Below are positions 47,521 to 53,309 of a DNA stretch of 64,000 bases, piece after piece. Position 1 is the stretch's first letter, and every line of letters starts with the position of its first letter. The position numbers were made by a program, and so were the translations under genes. This stretch comes from Trueperella pecoris (GTDB lineage Bacteria > Actinomycetota > Actinomycetes > Actinomycetales > Actinomycetaceae). The stretch spans positions 434,001 through 498,000 of the forward strand of contig NZ_CP053291.1 of the NCBI RefSeq assembly GCF_014926385.1. Direction: 5' to 3'. The notes beneath the pieces are model-generated. The model saw only the letters and a list, made by a program, of their open reading frames with translations. It was not told where the DNA came from and ran no database searches.

Positions 47521-48471
47521 ATGGAGATTTCTGTGCAACGTCTTGACGTTCTTTTGGCTGTCTCGAGGGAGGGAGGCATCCAAGCGGCTGCTGATGCTCT
47601 CCGTGTCTCGCCTTCGGCGGTGAGTCAGCAAATCCGCAAGTTAGAGCGGGAATGTGGCACTGATTTGCTCACGCGCACGCACTCTGGCGCGGTGTTAACG
47701 GAGGCCGGGAAGATCGTCGTCGCCGGAGCGGAACGCATTGAAAGTGAGCTCGACCGCACTTTCCGTGAGCTCCTCGAATTCGAAGGTGCGCCCACAGGAA
47801 TCGTCCGGCTAGCTTCATTCCAGACTGTTATTCGCGGCCTCGTCCTGCCGAACCTGGATACTTTTGCTGACGTCGCGCCCGGCATCGATCTTCACGTGCG
47901 GGAGGCCGACGCCGACGCCGCCCTTTCCGCCGTTCGCCGCGGCAAGGCAGACATCGCCGTGCTCGAATTCGATTCCGAAATCCCACGTGGGCCGCGCGGA
48001 GTCAAGGTCCTCCCGCTCTTGCAGGAGCCGTGGTACATGGTCTACCCGTCCGTGCTGGCCGACCCCCACGATCCGCGCGAGCTGGCGAGCGAAACCTGGC
48101 TCGGCGTCGACCCCGAAACAGCGGCCGGTATCGCCACCACCCGCTTGGCCGAGCAGTGGGGATTCACGCCGTCGGCCAAGTACGTCTATGAAGACTATGA
48201 CGTGGCGCTTCACATGGTTGCCGCCGGGTTGGGGACCACGGTGCTTCCCAAGCTGGGGCTGACCAACCTGCCCGACGGCGTCGAGGCGCGTATGCTTCCT
48301 GGTCTCGGAACGCGTAGGCTGGTGTTGTGCGTGTCGGCGGCGCTCTCGCGCCAGTCCGACGCTATCGACCTCACGTGTAAGGTCCTGCGCCAGCTGGCCC
48401 TGTCCCACACTGAACAGGGTGAGATGAACAATGGCCCTATTCCACAGTCGCCGAGCATCGCGCAGGCCTAG
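47521..48471 (+). CDS. LysR-family transcription regulator
   Basis: DNA-binding regulator, target unknown. 316 aa from ATG 47521 (an upstream in-frame ATG adds 12 non-conserved residues; a GTG at 47533 is also possible). Helix-turn-helix QRLDVLLAVSREGGIQAAADALRVSPSAVSQQIRKLERECGT (about 5-46), then the co-inducer domain with RLASFQTVIRGLVLPNL and GLGTTVLPKLGL. The 66-bp divergent gap to the membrane protein contains an ATTGCAAT palindrome that could be its site. Confidence 0.88.
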   Translation: MEISVQRLDVLLAVSREGGIQAAADALRVSPSAVSQQIRKLERECGTDLLTRTHSGAVLTEAGKIVVAGAERIESELDRTFRELLEFEGAPTGIVRLASFQTVIRGLVLPNLDTFADVAPGIDLHVREADADAALSAVRRGKADIAVLEFDSEIPRGPRGVKVLPLLQEPWYMVYPSVLADPHDPRELASETWLGVDPETAAGIATTRLAEQWGFTPSAKYVYEDYDVALHMVAAGLGTTVLPKLGLTNLPDGVEARMLPGLGTRRLVLCVSAALSRQSDAIDLTCKVLRQLALSHTEQGEMNNGPIPQSPSIAQA

Positions 48472-48531: not shown

Positions 48532-49362
48532 CTAGCTGAAGGGATTCCAGAAACGCCCGCCGTTGAACTGAATCGCGCCTATCGCGGCGAGGATGATTCC
48601 GATGCCGAGGAGGATCATCACCCAGTCGGCGGCTTTCATCGAGCGGGCCGATAGCCATGTCCGTGTCTTATTGCGGCCGAAGCCGCGCAGCTCCATGGCG
48701 GCTGCGATGGTTTCGATGCGGTCGAAGGTGCCAAGGAGGAGCGGCATGAGGGTGCGTGAGACGTTGCGTATGCGCGTGGCCAGCCCGACCTTTCGGGAGA
48801 CATCGAGCCCGCGCGCCTGCTGGGCGAGGGAGACGGTTTTGAATTCGCGCTGGATATCGGGGATGAAGCGAAGTGCGAGGGCCACCGAATAGGAGAATCG
48901 GTAGGGCAGACCGATGCTGTTGAGGGAGGCCGCGAACTCGCTCGGCGGCGTCGTGCCCACAAAGACGAGGACCGCGGGTAGCACCGCGAAGTACTTGAGC
49001 GTCACGAGGGCCTGGTAGAAGAGCTGTTCCCAGGTGAGGTCCCAGCGCCCGGGGCCGTCGGCGATGAGGTGGCTGGAGCCAAAGAGAGTGGTGCCGTAGG
49101 TCGGTTCGAAGGCGAAGATGAGAAGGTTGTTGAGAATCATGAAGGTGCCGATGAGGATCAGCACGACCTTCATGTCGCGCAGCTTCATCCGCGCCAGCGC
49201 CCACAGAGCGATGTTGGCGATCGCGCAGGCGAGAAGGAGGCGCGCGTCGAAGGTGATGGCTGCCGCAACGATAAACGCGATGACGAGCGCCAGCTTCGAC
49301 GTGCCGGTGAGCCGATGGATGAGACTTTGGCGTTCGATGTAACCCAGGATCGAATTAGCCAC
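48532..49362 (-). CDS. ecfT: ECF transporter T component (EcfT)
   Basis: Membrane scaffold of an energy-coupling-factor vitamin or nucleobase transporter. 276 aa: about five to six hydrophobic segments, the start SILGYIERQSLIHRLTGTSKLAL, and two coupling helices with the Ala-Arg-Gly signature, seen as LAQQARGLDVSR and AAAMELRGFGR. It overlaps the ATPase gene by eight bases and is the last gene of its operon. Confidence 0.92.
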   Translation of the reverse strand: MANSILGYIERQSLIHRLTGTSKLALVIAFIVAAAITFDARLLLACAIANIALWALARMKLRDMKVVLILIGTFMILNNLLIFAFEPTYGTTLFGSSHLIADGPGRWDLTWEQLFYQALVTLKYFAVLPAVLVFVGTTPPSEFAASLNSIGLPYRFSYSVALALRFIPDIQREFKTVSLAQQARGLDVSRKVGLATRIRNVSRTLMPLLLGTFDRIETIAAAMELRGFGRNKTRTWLSARSMKAADWVMILLGIGIILAAIGAIQFNGGRFWNPFS

Positions 49363-51127
49363 GTGCGCCTCCGTTCACGACGCCGTCCGGGCCAGTTGCG
49401 TGAGAACGCTCGGCTCGGTCGACGCTGAGGAAGCGGCGGACGAGTGCTTCGGCGTCGAGCTGGTAACGTTCCGCTAGCGTGTACAGGCCCGTAGTAACGA
49501 GGTCTGCCCGTTCGGTGACGTCAGGATTGGTCAGGACAGCGGAGGGATGGGCGTCGGCGATGATGTGCCCGTCGGAGATGACGAGCGTGCGTTCGGTGTA
49601 GTCGAGGGCGAGGTGCATGTCGTGTGTGATGAGGATGACGGTGGTGCCGAGCCTGTTCAGCGAGCGCAGGAAGTCCATGAACTCGGTGTAGTGGCCGAAG
49701 TCTTGCCCCGCGGTGGGCTCGTCAAGAATGAGAATTTTGGGCCCAAGCGCGAGCATGATCGCGATGGTCAGGCGTTTCTTCTGGCCGTGGGAGAGCGCCG
49801 AGATCGGCCATGAGCGCATGCGCCACAACCCGCACACCTGCAACGCTTCCTCGGAGCGCTTCGCGATTTCTTCCGGGGTCAGGTTGTGGGCGCGCAGAGC
49901 GAGCTCAACCTCTTCGCGCACGTAGGGGCTGGAGAGCATCTGCCCAGGTTCTTGCAGGACGAAGCCGACGCGCTGGCCGTGCTCGGCAAGCGACCACGCG
50001 CTGGCGTCCTGGCCATCGATGAGGATCGTGCCGGCGTTGGGCTTGGCGAAACCGGCGATGGCCCGGGCCAGGGTCGACTTGCCGGCCCCGTTGGAACCGA
50101 CGATGCCAACGAGCGATCCTTGCGTGATCGAGGTGGAGAGTTCTTCCAAGACGCGCACCGGAGGAAGGTCACCGTTTTGTTCATAGGAGATGGAGAGATT
50201 CTCGACCCGGATCGTGGCGGGCCGTTCGCCGCTGGTGTGAGCGTCGGGGGCGGGGGCGCCGGCCACCCAGGCGCGAAGCTTGATGATCGCATCCTCGTCG
50301 AGGGCTGTGAAGGCCGCGTTTGATGGACGCATCTGCGCGGTGATGTCCACACCCGCATACCGCAGGGCGGTCGAGTGAAGCGGAGGGCGGATCCCGTGGG
50401 CTTCCAGTAGCCCGGAGGCGACCATCTCGTCGGGCGCCAGATCGGCGACGACGACGCCGTCGTTCATCAGCACCACGCGATCGAGGCCACAATGGAGGAC
50501 GTCCTCGAGGCGGTGCTCGACGATGATGACGGTCTTGCCAAGCTCGCGGTTGAGGCGGTCGATGAGCTCGATTGTTTGGCGTCCGGAGGCGGGATCGAGC
50601 ATGGCCAGCGGTTCGTCGAAAAGGAGGATGTCGACGTCGTCGACGAGCACACCGGCCATAGCGACGCGCTGCTTTTGCCCGCCGGAAAGGTCTTGCGGGG
50701 CAGAGTCGAGGTGGTCGGCGATGCCGACTCGGGTGGCAGCGGCGCGGACGGCGTCGCGCATGTCGGCCTGGGGCACGCCCTGGTTTTCAAGCGAGAATGC
50801 GATGTCTTCGGCGACGGTGAGGCCCACAAACTGATCGGCGGAGTTTTGCAGAACCGTGCCGACGTGACGGGAGACGTCGACGAGGGAGGCGGAGGCGGGA
50901 TCCAGGCCCGCCACGCTCACGTGCCCGCTCGTGAGTCTGCCACCAAAGTGGCTAAATCCCAACGAGTTGAGCACGTTGATGAGGGTGGACTTGCCGCACC
51001 CGGACCGACCAACAATCGCCACCTTCTGCCCAGGTTCGATCCTGAGGGAGACATTCTTTAAGGTAGGCTCCGCCTGGCTGTGATACTGGAAGGTCAGATC
51101 GTGGATCTCAATGATCGGTCCGGGCAA
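49355..51127 (-). CDS. ecfA: ECF transporter, fused double ATP-binding protein
   Basis: Energises the ECF transporter. 590 aa, two ABC domains in one chain (EcfA1-EcfA2 fused). First domain: Walker A GRSGCGKST, signature LSGGQKQRVAMAGVL, Walker B ILLFDEPLAMLDP. Second domain (from about 310): Walker A GSNGAGKST, signature LSHGQKKRLTIAIML, Walker B ILILDEPTAGQD. The C-terminal tail (ATGPDGVVNGG) overlaps ecfT and carries one copy of the GACGGCGTCGTG 12-mer. Confidence 0.94.
   Translation of the reverse strand: MPGPIIEIHDLTFQYHSQAEPTLKNVSLRIEPGQKVAIVGRSGCGKSTLINVLNSLGFSHFGGRLTSGHVSVAGLDPASASLVDVSRHVGTVLQNSADQFVGLTVAEDIAFSLENQGVPQADMRDAVRAAATRVGIADHLDSAPQDLSGGQKQRVAMAGVLVDDVDILLFDEPLAMLDPASGRQTIELIDRLNRELGKTVIIVEHRLEDVLHCGLDRVVLMNDGVVVADLAPDEMVASGLLEAHGIRPPLHSTALRYAGVDITAQMRPSNAAFTALDEDAIIKLRAWVAGAPAPDAHTSGERPATIRVENLSISYEQNGDLPPVRVLEELSTSITQGSLVGIVGSNGAGKSTLARAIAGFAKPNAGTILIDGQDASAWSLAEHGQRVGFVLQEPGQMLSSPYVREEVELALRAHNLTPEEIAKRSEEALQVCGLWRMRSWPISALSHGQKKRLTIAIMLALGPKILILDEPTAGQDFGHYTEFMDFLRSLNRLGTTVILITHDMHLALDYTERTLVISDGHIIADAHPSAVLTNPDVTERADLVTTGLYTLAERYQLDAEALVRRFLSVDRAERSHATGPDGVVNGGARG
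49376..49387 (-). repeat. 12-mer motif copy inside the ecfA 3' end
   Basis: Reads GACGGCGTCGTG on the minus strand, encoding D-G-V-V in the non-conserved tail of the ATPase, about 20 bp before its stop codon. Confidence 0.6.
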
Positions 51128-51131
51128 GGGC

Positions 51132-51689
51132 CTAATCCTCCTGGCGCAACGTGCCGGAACCGGTACGCGTGCGCGCGTAGACGAGCAGGATCAGGGTGCC
51201 GACCACGCAGGTGGTGATCGCATTCGAACCGAAGGCGAACGCACCCTGGGTGAAGACTTTGTTGGCCGGCTCCGAGTAGATGAGGAGGTCGCCGACCGGT
51301 GCGATCAGAAGCCACGCGACGGCGTGGGCGAGGATAACGCCGATGTTGAAGCGCGCCATGGCCTTGGCGCCGAAATCGCCTTCGCGCACGCGGTTGCCGA
51401 CCAGCAGCAGGCCGAGCAGCAGGCCGAAGACGAGCGTTGCGAGCTCCCACGAGAGCCAGATTCCCCACGTCGCATCGATGAGGAGGTGGCCAATGAAACC
51501 AGAAAGCGCGCCGACGACGGGACCGTACAGCACGGCAAACACGGCCAGGACAGCGTACTGGAGTGAGATCTGGGTGTTGGGGACCGGGGAAGGGATCGCG
51601 ACGAACCGGCCCAGCACGAAGAACAGTGCGGCGCCGATGCCGATCGCTACCACCTGGACGACGGGGGAGACTTTATTCAATTGAGGCAT
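51132..51689 (-). CDS. ECF transporter S component, UPF0397-like
   Basis: Substrate-capture membrane subunit. 185 aa, about six hydrophobic segments. VVAIGIGAALFFVLGRFVAIP, PNTQISLQYAVLAVFAVLYGP and LSGFIGHLLIDATWG follow the UPF0397 family, annotated elsewhere as a riboflavin- or pyrimidine-type transporter, but without firm proof. It is 4 bp from the ATPase gene. The neighbouring SAM hydroxide adenosyltransferase suggests that the ligand may be an adenosine- or SAM-related compound; that is inference. Confidence 0.85.
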   Translation of the reverse strand: MPQLNKVSPVVQVVAIGIGAALFFVLGRFVAIPSPVPNTQISLQYAVLAVFAVLYGPVVGALSGFIGHLLIDATWGIWLSWELATLVFGLLLGLLLVGNRVREGDFGAKAMARFNIGVILAHAVAWLLIAPVGDLLIYSEPANKVFTQGAFAFGSNAITTCVVGTLILLVYARTRTGSGTLRQED

Positions 51690-51738
51690 GGTTTACTCCT
51701 TCAGCGGTGTGCGTTAGCGGTGTGTGGATGGTCGAAAC

Positions 51739-52575
51739 TTACAGCTTCGCGAGCGTGATGTGCCACGTGGGCCCGGTGGCGATGTCGAATGCTCGTGCGT
51801 ACGAACCGCGGTTGATGGCCACGGCCATGCGATCAAGAGAATTGACATAGGCGAGCGACTCGCCGACTTCGACCGAGGCGAACGAGGGGACGTAGGTGAC
51901 GTGGTTGGCGTGGACGACGCCGCCGTTGTGGGTCACGTACAGGCGCACCCGGTCTCCGAACTGGAACCCAAGATCAAGGAACTGTGCGCGGGGGATGGAG
52001 GTCCACAAAGAGCCGTAGCGCACGTCGAGGGCGTCGATCGTTCCCGTGATCGAGTCGGGCTCGACAATGGTGTCGCTGAGCGGCAGCAGCACCAGCGAAG
52101 ACGGGTCGATTCGAGGGCCGACCTCCTCGTAGGAAATGATTCCGGCTGCCAGGCGAGCACCTGTGTAGGCGTACACGTCGCGGCCGTGGAACGTGTAGGA
52201 GGCCTCCGAACCGCGCAGGCGGTTCTCACCCTCGTCGATCTGGCGCACCTCGGTGATCCCGAAGATGGCGTGAACGTGGGTGAGCGTGCCGTTATCGGGG
52301 GTCACGATGTAGTGGCCCGTTGCCGTCTTCGCCACAACGGACATGCGATCCGAGCCCACGCCCGGATCAACCACCGAGACGAAAACGGTGCCCTGGGGCC
52401 AGTAGCCGATCGTCTGGGCTAGACGGAACGATCCCTCCCAAATGTTGTAGGGAGGAATATTGTGGGTCAGGTTGTAAATCTGCAAAGATGGGTCACACGA
52501 AAGGGCTACGCCGTACATCGAGGCCACAGCGCCGTCGTCGAGGCCGAAATCGGATTGAATAACAAGAGCTTTCAC
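51739..52575 (-). CDS. S-adenosylmethionine hydroxide adenosyltransferase (DUF62/SAM_adeno_trans)
   Basis: Hydrolyses S-adenosylmethionine to adenosine and methionine; the family includes the fluorinase and chlorinase. 278 aa. KALVIQSDFGLDDGAVASMYG carries the conserved active-site Asp residues, SVVDPGVGS and VTPDNGTLTHV follow, and a C-terminal domain ends in ATGPTWHITLAKL. No halide-specific loop is evident. GTG start; the ribosome site is very close (GAGG). It is first in the operon with the ECF genes. Confidence 0.88.
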   Translation of the reverse strand: MKALVIQSDFGLDDGAVASMYGVALSCDPSLQIYNLTHNIPPYNIWEGSFRLAQTIGYWPQGTVFVSVVDPGVGSDRMSVVAKTATGHYIVTPDNGTLTHVHAIFGITEVRQIDEGENRLRGSEASYTFHGRDVYAYTGARLAAGIISYEEVGPRIDPSSLVLLPLSDTIVEPDSITGTIDALDVRYGSLWTSIPRAQFLDLGFQFGDRVRLYVTHNGGVVHANHVTYVPSFASVEVGESLAYVNSLDRMAVAINRGSYARAFDIATGPTWHITLAKL

Positions 52576-52868
52576 ACCTCGATCTTAAAGCGTGGAACAA
52601 CGCCGTGGCGGGCTTCCCACGCATCGGACGCCATGCGTCCAGAAGGTGAGCCAGGGTGGCCGGTCGGAAGGCGTGCCGACGGCGTCGTGGAACCGGCCAC
52701 ACCGCAGGGCAGACCTTTGACGGCGCCCACGGCTCAGATTAGAATCAAAAACCGTTGTGCCTTGATGCTCATTCCCACTCGTCATGGCACGGCAGCGAAT
52801 TTGACCATTTGGCATATAGCGGCCCAAGCCATTCCGCTAGCCAAGCTTGAATAGAAAAGGCTACGCAA
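52576..52868. promoter_or_regulatory. Divergent region SAM adenosyltransferase / rplM
   Basis: About 290 bp without a gene. GGCCGGT and ACCGGCC (about 52660-52699) frame a hairpin whose inner part contains the 12-mer GACGGCGTCGTG (52678-52689). An AT-richer part before rplM has TTGACC (52801) but no well-spaced -10 that I can defend. No riboswitch-like fold was seen before the SAM gene. Confidence 0.4.
52678..52689 (+). repeat. 12-mer motif copy between SAM adenosyltransferase and rplM
   Basis: Exact GACGGCGTCGTG on the plus strand, inside a GGCCGGT/ACCGGCC stem. Confidence 0.6.
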
Positions 52869-53309
52869 GTGCGCACTTTTACACCGAAGCCCGGCGACAT
52901 TGAAAAGAAGTGGTACGTCATCGACGCCACTGATGTCGTCCTCGGCCGACTGGCAGCTCAGGTTGCCCCTCTGCTACGTGGGAAGCATAAGCCGACCTTC
53001 GCTCCGCACGTTGACACCGGTGACTTCGTCATCGTTATCAACGCTGATAAGGTCGCTCTGACCGGCATGAAGCACACGCAGAAGATGGCCTACCGCCACT
53101 CCGGTTTCCCGGGCGGCCTCAAGGCTACTTCCTACGCCGAGCTTCTCGAGGAGAATCCCGAGCGCGCCGTCTACAAGGCTGTCGCTGGCATGCTCCCGAA
53201 GGGCACCCTCGGACGTCAGCAGCTCTCCAAGCTCAAGATCTACCGTGGCGCCGAGCACCCGCATTCGGCTCAGAAGCCCGAGGTCTACGAGCTCAAGGCT
53301 GCCAAGTAA
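52869..53309 (+). CDS. rplM: 50S ribosomal protein L13 (uL13)
   Basis: Early 50S assembly protein. 146 aa, GTG start. [40 protein letters not shown] and the [33 protein letters not shown] block are conserved. rpsI follows after 33 bp, the standard rplM-rpsI operon. Confidence 0.98.

Follow-up and report, generated by a model that had tools for sequence, protein, structure and literature searches.

We describe an operon that joins a DUF62 enzyme, a member of the S-adenosylmethionine (SAM) hydroxide adenosyltransferase/SAM hydrolase family, with an energy-coupling factor (ECF) importer in Trueperella pecoris. It lies in the window, by which we mean the whole analysed stretch of 64,000 nucleotides (contig NZ_CP053291.1, positions 434,001 to 498,000). 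The linkage of DUF62 to the S component of the importer recurs in other genomes far beyond chance, and the operon is very likely to serve methionine/SAM metabolism. We tentatively propose that it is a SAM/methionine salvage module, in which SAM or a close relative would be imported and the imported SAM would be split by DUF62. The features concerned are:

51739..52575, minus strand: SAM hydroxide adenosyltransferase/SAM hydrolase family protein (DUF62; PF01887 and PF20257), 278 aa, GTG start
51132..51689, minus strand: ECF S component of UPF0397/MtsA type (PF07155, NF010182), 185 aa
49355..51127, minus strand: fused double ECF ATPase (EcfA-EcfA'), 590 aa, TTG start, with a DUF3744 match between the halves
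48532..49362, minus strand: EcfT transmembrane coupling subunit (CbiQ/EcfT Pfam match), 276 aa, GTG start
52576..52868, minus strand: intergenic leader/promoter region that separates the operon from the divergent gene at 52869

The four genes, with these coordinates, strand and order, had been named in an original prediction made from the letters alone, and the list of open reading frames (ORFs) and the Pfam matches bear them out. Read along the minus strand the order is DUF62, UPF0397 S component, fused double ATPase and EcfT. The genes are closely packed, separated by 49 bp and 4 bp and then overlapping by 8 bp according to the ORF coordinates.

The linkage was examined in three sets: 198 genomes belonging to the order of the window, 299 from the class that includes Bacillus altitudinis (called Bacilli-type here), and named genomes, where the best 80 loci out of 251 relatives (18 actinobacterial, 62 others) were scanned. 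PF07155 was matched in 55/198 genomes of the window's order and exceeded the cut-off in 38, with strong matches (E < 1e-31) in only 13 and the next at 2e-13. DUF62 lies directly upstream of the strongly matching S component in all 13. The family occurs in 14 genomes of this sample, namely those 13 and one (G011) that has DUF62 alone. Among the Bacilli-type genomes UPF0397 exceeded the cut-off in 41, DUF62 was present in 36, and the 26 genomes with both have them adjacent on the same strand, with starts 831-904 bp apart. Fisher tests, which ignore kinship, gave p values of about 5e-19 for the window's order and 2e-19 for the Bacilli-type class. The original prediction had proposed to follow the co-occurrence of the two families over genomes, and had named unlinked genes elsewhere as one half of the outcome that would speak against it; the genes proved adjacent wherever both families occur (13/13 and 26/26).

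The named genomes gave a similar picture for actinobacteria, DUF62 adjoining the S gene at 18/18 loci (in L047 split over two frames). For the 62 other loci, from Clostridia, spirochaetes and Bacillus, DUF62 was found within the fetched stretch in ten, directly upstream of the S gene in seven and facing EcfT in three. When the 50 genomes behind 50 of these 62 loci were searched as a whole, 15 carried DUF62 anywhere. Over 49 loci the identity matrices of DUF62 and the S component correlate with r 0.76, a value reached by 0/2000 permutations. A further order (225 genomes) yielded UPF0397 over the cut-off in three genomes and DUF62 in none.

Ten genomes of the Bacilli-type class carry DUF62 without UPF0397. 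In G526 fragments of DUF62 and EcfT share one frame, apparently the remains of an operon in decay; in G457 DUF62 is interrupted by a stop; G259 carries two DUF62 genes whose N-termini resemble leaders; and in the others the gene is solitary. The single ORF at L187:2825-3667 starts out as DUF62 and finishes as EcfT, apparently the product of a deletion that collapsed the operon.

Regulatory RNAs before related operons support the link to methionine and SAM, as does metK within some of these operons. A T-box precedes DUF62 in 11 of 30 Bacilli loci, four at the Rfam gathering score (L114, L119, L121 and L136; L119 and L109 belong to one genome) and seven by motif only. In our own reading the specifier position is AUG, the methionine codon, in 11/11. 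T-boxes are weakly associated with DUF62, being present at 11/22 DUF62-linked and 0/8 unlinked Bacilli loci (Fisher p 0.014). A SAM-I riboswitch, confirmed by cmscan, stands directly before the S gene in six of 50 genomes (L050, L051, L053, L062, L084 and L102; Oscillospiraceae or Clostridia drafts), ending roughly 70-110 nt from the start of the gene. In five of the six it is the only SAM-I found in the genome. The gene following EcfT is metK in five of these operons (L053, L102, L051, L084 and L062, where the contig holds only the metK start), and in the sixth genome (G206) metK follows closely on a second SAM-I, on a different contig. DUF62 is absent from all six genomes when each is checked as a whole. 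Two new loci from the further order (L144, L145) had no SAM-I.

The DUF62 protein of the window exceeds the curated Pfam cut-offs with both domains, SAM_HAT_N (6.4e-50; 169.1 bits, cut-off 26.3) and SAM_HAT_C (7.9e-18; 65 bits, cut-off 25.5). It falls far below the cut-offs of the (R)-SAM hydrolase equivalogs NF058624 and NF053629 (129.9 vs 350 and 108.9 vs 470 bits) and is for this reason not filed under them. The protein keeps D70, R77 and H130, the Asp-Arg-His set that we take to be catalytic in DUF62 hydrolases. Asp70 and Arg77 are present in 51/51 compared sequences, and position 130 is His in 48 and Tyr in three. Alignments with phmmer show that PH0463 keeps Asp-Arg-His; in contrast, the DUF62 homologue 7ccg of the PDB has Tyr at both places where the window's enzyme keeps Asp70 and His130. 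Its structure model has a predicted local distance difference test (pLDDT) score of 92.6. Since no obvious signal peptide was seen by eye at the N-terminus, the enzyme should act in the cytosol. Homologues convert SAM to methionine and adenosine, and the Salinispora tropica protein StDUF62 uses the (R,S)-SAM epimer as substrate, the physiological role being left open by a 2025 paper (PMC12120602).

Two other DUF62 arrangements were observed by eye. At L178:1492-2586 and L178:2910-3947 adjacent DUF62 genes have signal- or lipoprotein-like N-termini and possibly encode exported SAM hydrolases. A lone DUF62 gene at L184:2932-3810 adjoins genes resembling those for 3'-phosphoadenosine 5'-phosphosulfate (PAPS) reductase and sulfate adenylyltransferase.

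The proposed salvage route would run as follows. The ECF importer, with its own double ATPase and EcfT, would take up a SAM-related compound, which might well be SAM itself. SAM inverts spontaneously at the sulfonium, and most enzymes make no use of the resulting (R,S) epimer. A cytosolic DUF62 would split the imported SAM, perhaps chiefly this epimer, and both products, methionine and adenosine, could be regained. In the SAM-I operons, most of which include metK, the need might be for SAM itself, and there the importer would be retained with no hydrolase beside it. The genes, their recurrent adjacency and the methionine/SAM control of some relatives are established; which ligand is taken up, in which direction material flows, which epimer is preferred, and that the window's operon is controlled in the same way, are points that we infer. 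SAM is what ties together the importer, the SAM-splitting enzyme, the methionine T-boxes, the SAM-I riboswitches and metK. With more reserve, the scheme may be generalised: UPF0397/MtsABC would be a SAM importer, DUF62 would digest imported racemised SAM, and SAM would be a scavenged public good. The make-up of the operon would then follow need, a hydrolase going with methionine sensing by T-box, and metK without hydrolase going with SAM sensing by SAM-I.

Several observations weigh against this proposal. Fifteen of the 41 UPF0397 genomes of the Bacilli-type class lack DUF62 (eight with strong matches, seven with weaker ones), as do 35 of the 50 importer genomes of other groups. Judged by S-component identity the T-box operons come from three lineages only, which is why their association with DUF62 counts as weak, and the SAM-I operons are mutually related, with S components 70-83% identical; the contrast between hydrolase and metK thus rests on few events. 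When 65 related loci were scanned with Rfam, 11 had a T-box or SAM-I at the gathering score, seven a T-box motif only, and 47 neither. Ten actinobacterial loci scanned in the same way had no known RNA regulator. Near the window's operon, leader 52576..52868 included, no Rfam family reached the gathering score, and positions 52200-52900 gave chance-level RNA matches only (E up to 5). The methionine- or SAM-sensing RNA before the operon that marks MtsABC-type systems is accordingly found in relatives and missing from the window. The original prediction of a salvage system whose ligand is connected with SAM or adenosine is partly supported: T-boxes, SAM-I and metK in relatives speak for the methionine/SAM area, and no such RNA is found in the window itself. 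Moreover, metK exceeds the cut-off in 60/67 importer genomes, including all 13 actinobacterial ones tested; since nearly all importer genomes tested carry metK, uptake of SAM would be salvage and inessential. Finally, the metK-bearing operons are equally consistent with import of methionine.

Import of methionine or of a precursor (homocysteine, S-methylmethionine or methylthioribose) is the main rival to SAM import, and we regard it as a serious, if rather doubtful, possibility. DUF62 would then be a separate source of methionine or a repair enzyme that recycles intracellular (R,S)-SAM, sharing the operon since both functions raise methionine under starvation. Methionine T-boxes, and operons of importer and metK under SAM-I, are exactly what this explanation expects, and the importer family is annotated as a 'methionine-regulated ECF transporter' in PMC9423846. 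On the other hand, the tight tie of DUF62 to the importer, adjacent in every genome with both, would be left unexplained, and breaking down SAM while methionine is scarce would seem a waste if that SAM were neither of outside origin nor the unusable epimer.

The importer proteins themselves bear on the suggestion, improbable in our judgement, that the operon imports a vitamin such as riboflavin or pyridoxamine, in keeping with the family name, with an indirect link to DUF62. The S component (51132-51689) matches PF07155 at 2.1e-42 and belongs to NF010182 (202.3 bits, cut-off 99), and the names of both families favour a vitamin. PF07155 also includes the vitamin B6 transporters PdxU and PdxU2/HmpT (PMC9997740). 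The AlphaFold2 model of the protein (mean pLDDT 94.3) has a predicted S-component fold, and the top rows of the VIA-align search were S components, the best being ThiT (4tkr_A; Z 18.4, 163 residues, root-mean-square deviation 2.6). The model resembles S components for thiamin, folate, riboflavin, pantothenate and biotin, with ThiT, RibU and FolT about equally close; this may be read in favour of a vitamin, and because several different vitamins are represented the fold names no ligand. Against a vitamin importer, flavin mononucleotide (FMN) and thiamin pyrophosphate (TPP) riboswitches at the gathering score were found in none of the 65 related loci, nor was an FMN riboswitch found in the window, which lends nothing to the name riboflavin transporter. 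The metabolite regulators that were found are those for methionine and SAM, and the pairing with DUF62 is maintained across two phyla.

Slightly less probable still is an alternative raised in the original prediction, in which adenosine, methylthioadenosine or another adenosyl compound is imported and DUF62 removes a toxic adenosyl sulfonium. DUF62 does attack SAM at its adenosyl bond (PMC12120602), but none of the 65 scanned loci had a purine riboswitch at the gathering score, and metK in the SAM-I operons indicates methionine/SAM and not purines. The plain importers of a nucleoside, riboflavin or hydroxymethylpyrimidine that the original prediction had also entertained gain no support from the regulators found.

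The fused ATPase (49355-51127) has two ABC_tran domains in Pfam, and Walker A, LSxGQ and Walker B motifs are kept in each half, two of each in all. EcfT (48532-49362) shows an ARG motif and an LRG motif. With two intact ATPase domains and EcfT encoded, the operon appears from its sequence to possess an energising module of its own. The closest S components in the named genomes are from Trueperella, at 84% and 79% identity, records near the window's genome being possibly left out. At the spirochaete-type locus L067 the neighbours of the S gene resemble, by eye, cysteine synthase and an Rrf2 regulator.

SAM auxotrophy was considered as proof of SAM import and rejected, as the metagenome-assembled genomes (MAGs) without metK have MetK-like proteins and may make SAM. 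Four spirochaete-type MAGs with importer and DUF62 (G201, G218, G223 and G230) have no canonical metK (TIGR01034), and each encodes a MetK-like protein (about 263-272 aa) that shows HPDK and GGGLHGKD-type motifs. Compact MetK-like proteins with such motifs, about 227-272 aa, from four spirochaete-type MAGs in which TIGR01034 detects no canonical metK, lie at:

L173:350-1138
L174:436-1251
L175:548-1348
L176:331-1134
L177:10-690

Three of them were scanned for the Pfam domain S-AdoMet_synt_N, which was found in the full-length L173 and L175 proteins; L177 gave nothing. The L177 copy adjoins an ORF that by eye resembles a DNA methyltransferase. G213 and G215 gave only partial matches, and G237 none; all these genomes are draft assemblies.

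The genes on both sides of the operon point the other way (ribosomal protein genes upstream and a LysR-type gene downstream, as named by eye), from which we take the operon to consist of these four genes. The window's genome, one contig of 2.28 Mb, has one PF01887 gene, one match to the UPF0397 S component and two to metK (1020790-1021959 and 1735610-1736713; 569 and 388 bits), both distant from the operon. The LysR-type gene (47521-48471) was considered as a regulator of the operon and rejected for want of a tie to it. Among the 80 loci L033-L112 it has a single clear homologue, about 3 kb past EcfT at the edge of L033, and a weak second match in L073, a locus without DUF62.

Linkage in two phyla, together with the methionine/SAM regulation of relatives, makes the functions of importer and enzyme testable. 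If the ligand is SAM, the operon would encode a dedicated importer for scavenging SAM between microbes, and the database name 'riboflavin transporter' would be wrong for UPF0397/MtsABC. What is new is the combination, together with the contrast between versions that bear DUF62 and sense methionine and versions that bear metK and sense SAM; the protein families themselves are already known. Comparative-genomics papers of 2004 and 2009 on methionine regulons and ECF transporters may mention the DUF62 link. No paper came up in a full-text search that combined the name of the DUF62 enzyme with 'ECF transporter', and a search that left most subscription papers outside found nothing on an MtsABC-DUF62 link or on the MtsABC ligand.

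Among known systems, the window's importer is probably the same transporter as MtsABC, an annotation name standing for 'methionine-regulated ECF transporter' in PMC9423846 and PMC5066943; it differs in that Rfam detects no methionine regulatory RNA at the window's operon. A Streptococcus suis table in the former places MtsA next to a preceding gene, SSU0361, named 'DNA-directed RNA polymerase subunit delta'. As the DUF62 homologue 7ccg bears the same name in the PDB, we infer that SSU0361 is a misnamed DUF62 in the same DUF62-MtsA order; both proteins seem to be misnamed in the records, SSU0361 by virtue of its place before MtsA. The (R,S)-SAM hydrolase StDUF62 shares the family of the window's enzyme (PF01887 and PF20257), but no importer is described beside it, the word 'transporter' having no occurrence in the accessible text of PMC12120602. 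The SAM-dependent chlorinase and fluorinase are homologous to DUF62 as well (phmmer matches 2q6i and 1rqp).

The nearest working analogue of the DUF62-importer operon is the QrtT/QueK/QueL salvage of queuosine precursors, in whose operon QueK has an enzymatic role; its substrate and enzymes are different. QrtT is said to use a shared ECF core, whereas the window's operon encodes its own ATPases and EcfT, and the likeness lies in an ECF S component and enzymes of the same route brought together in one operon under a riboswitch of the pathway (PMC11477304).

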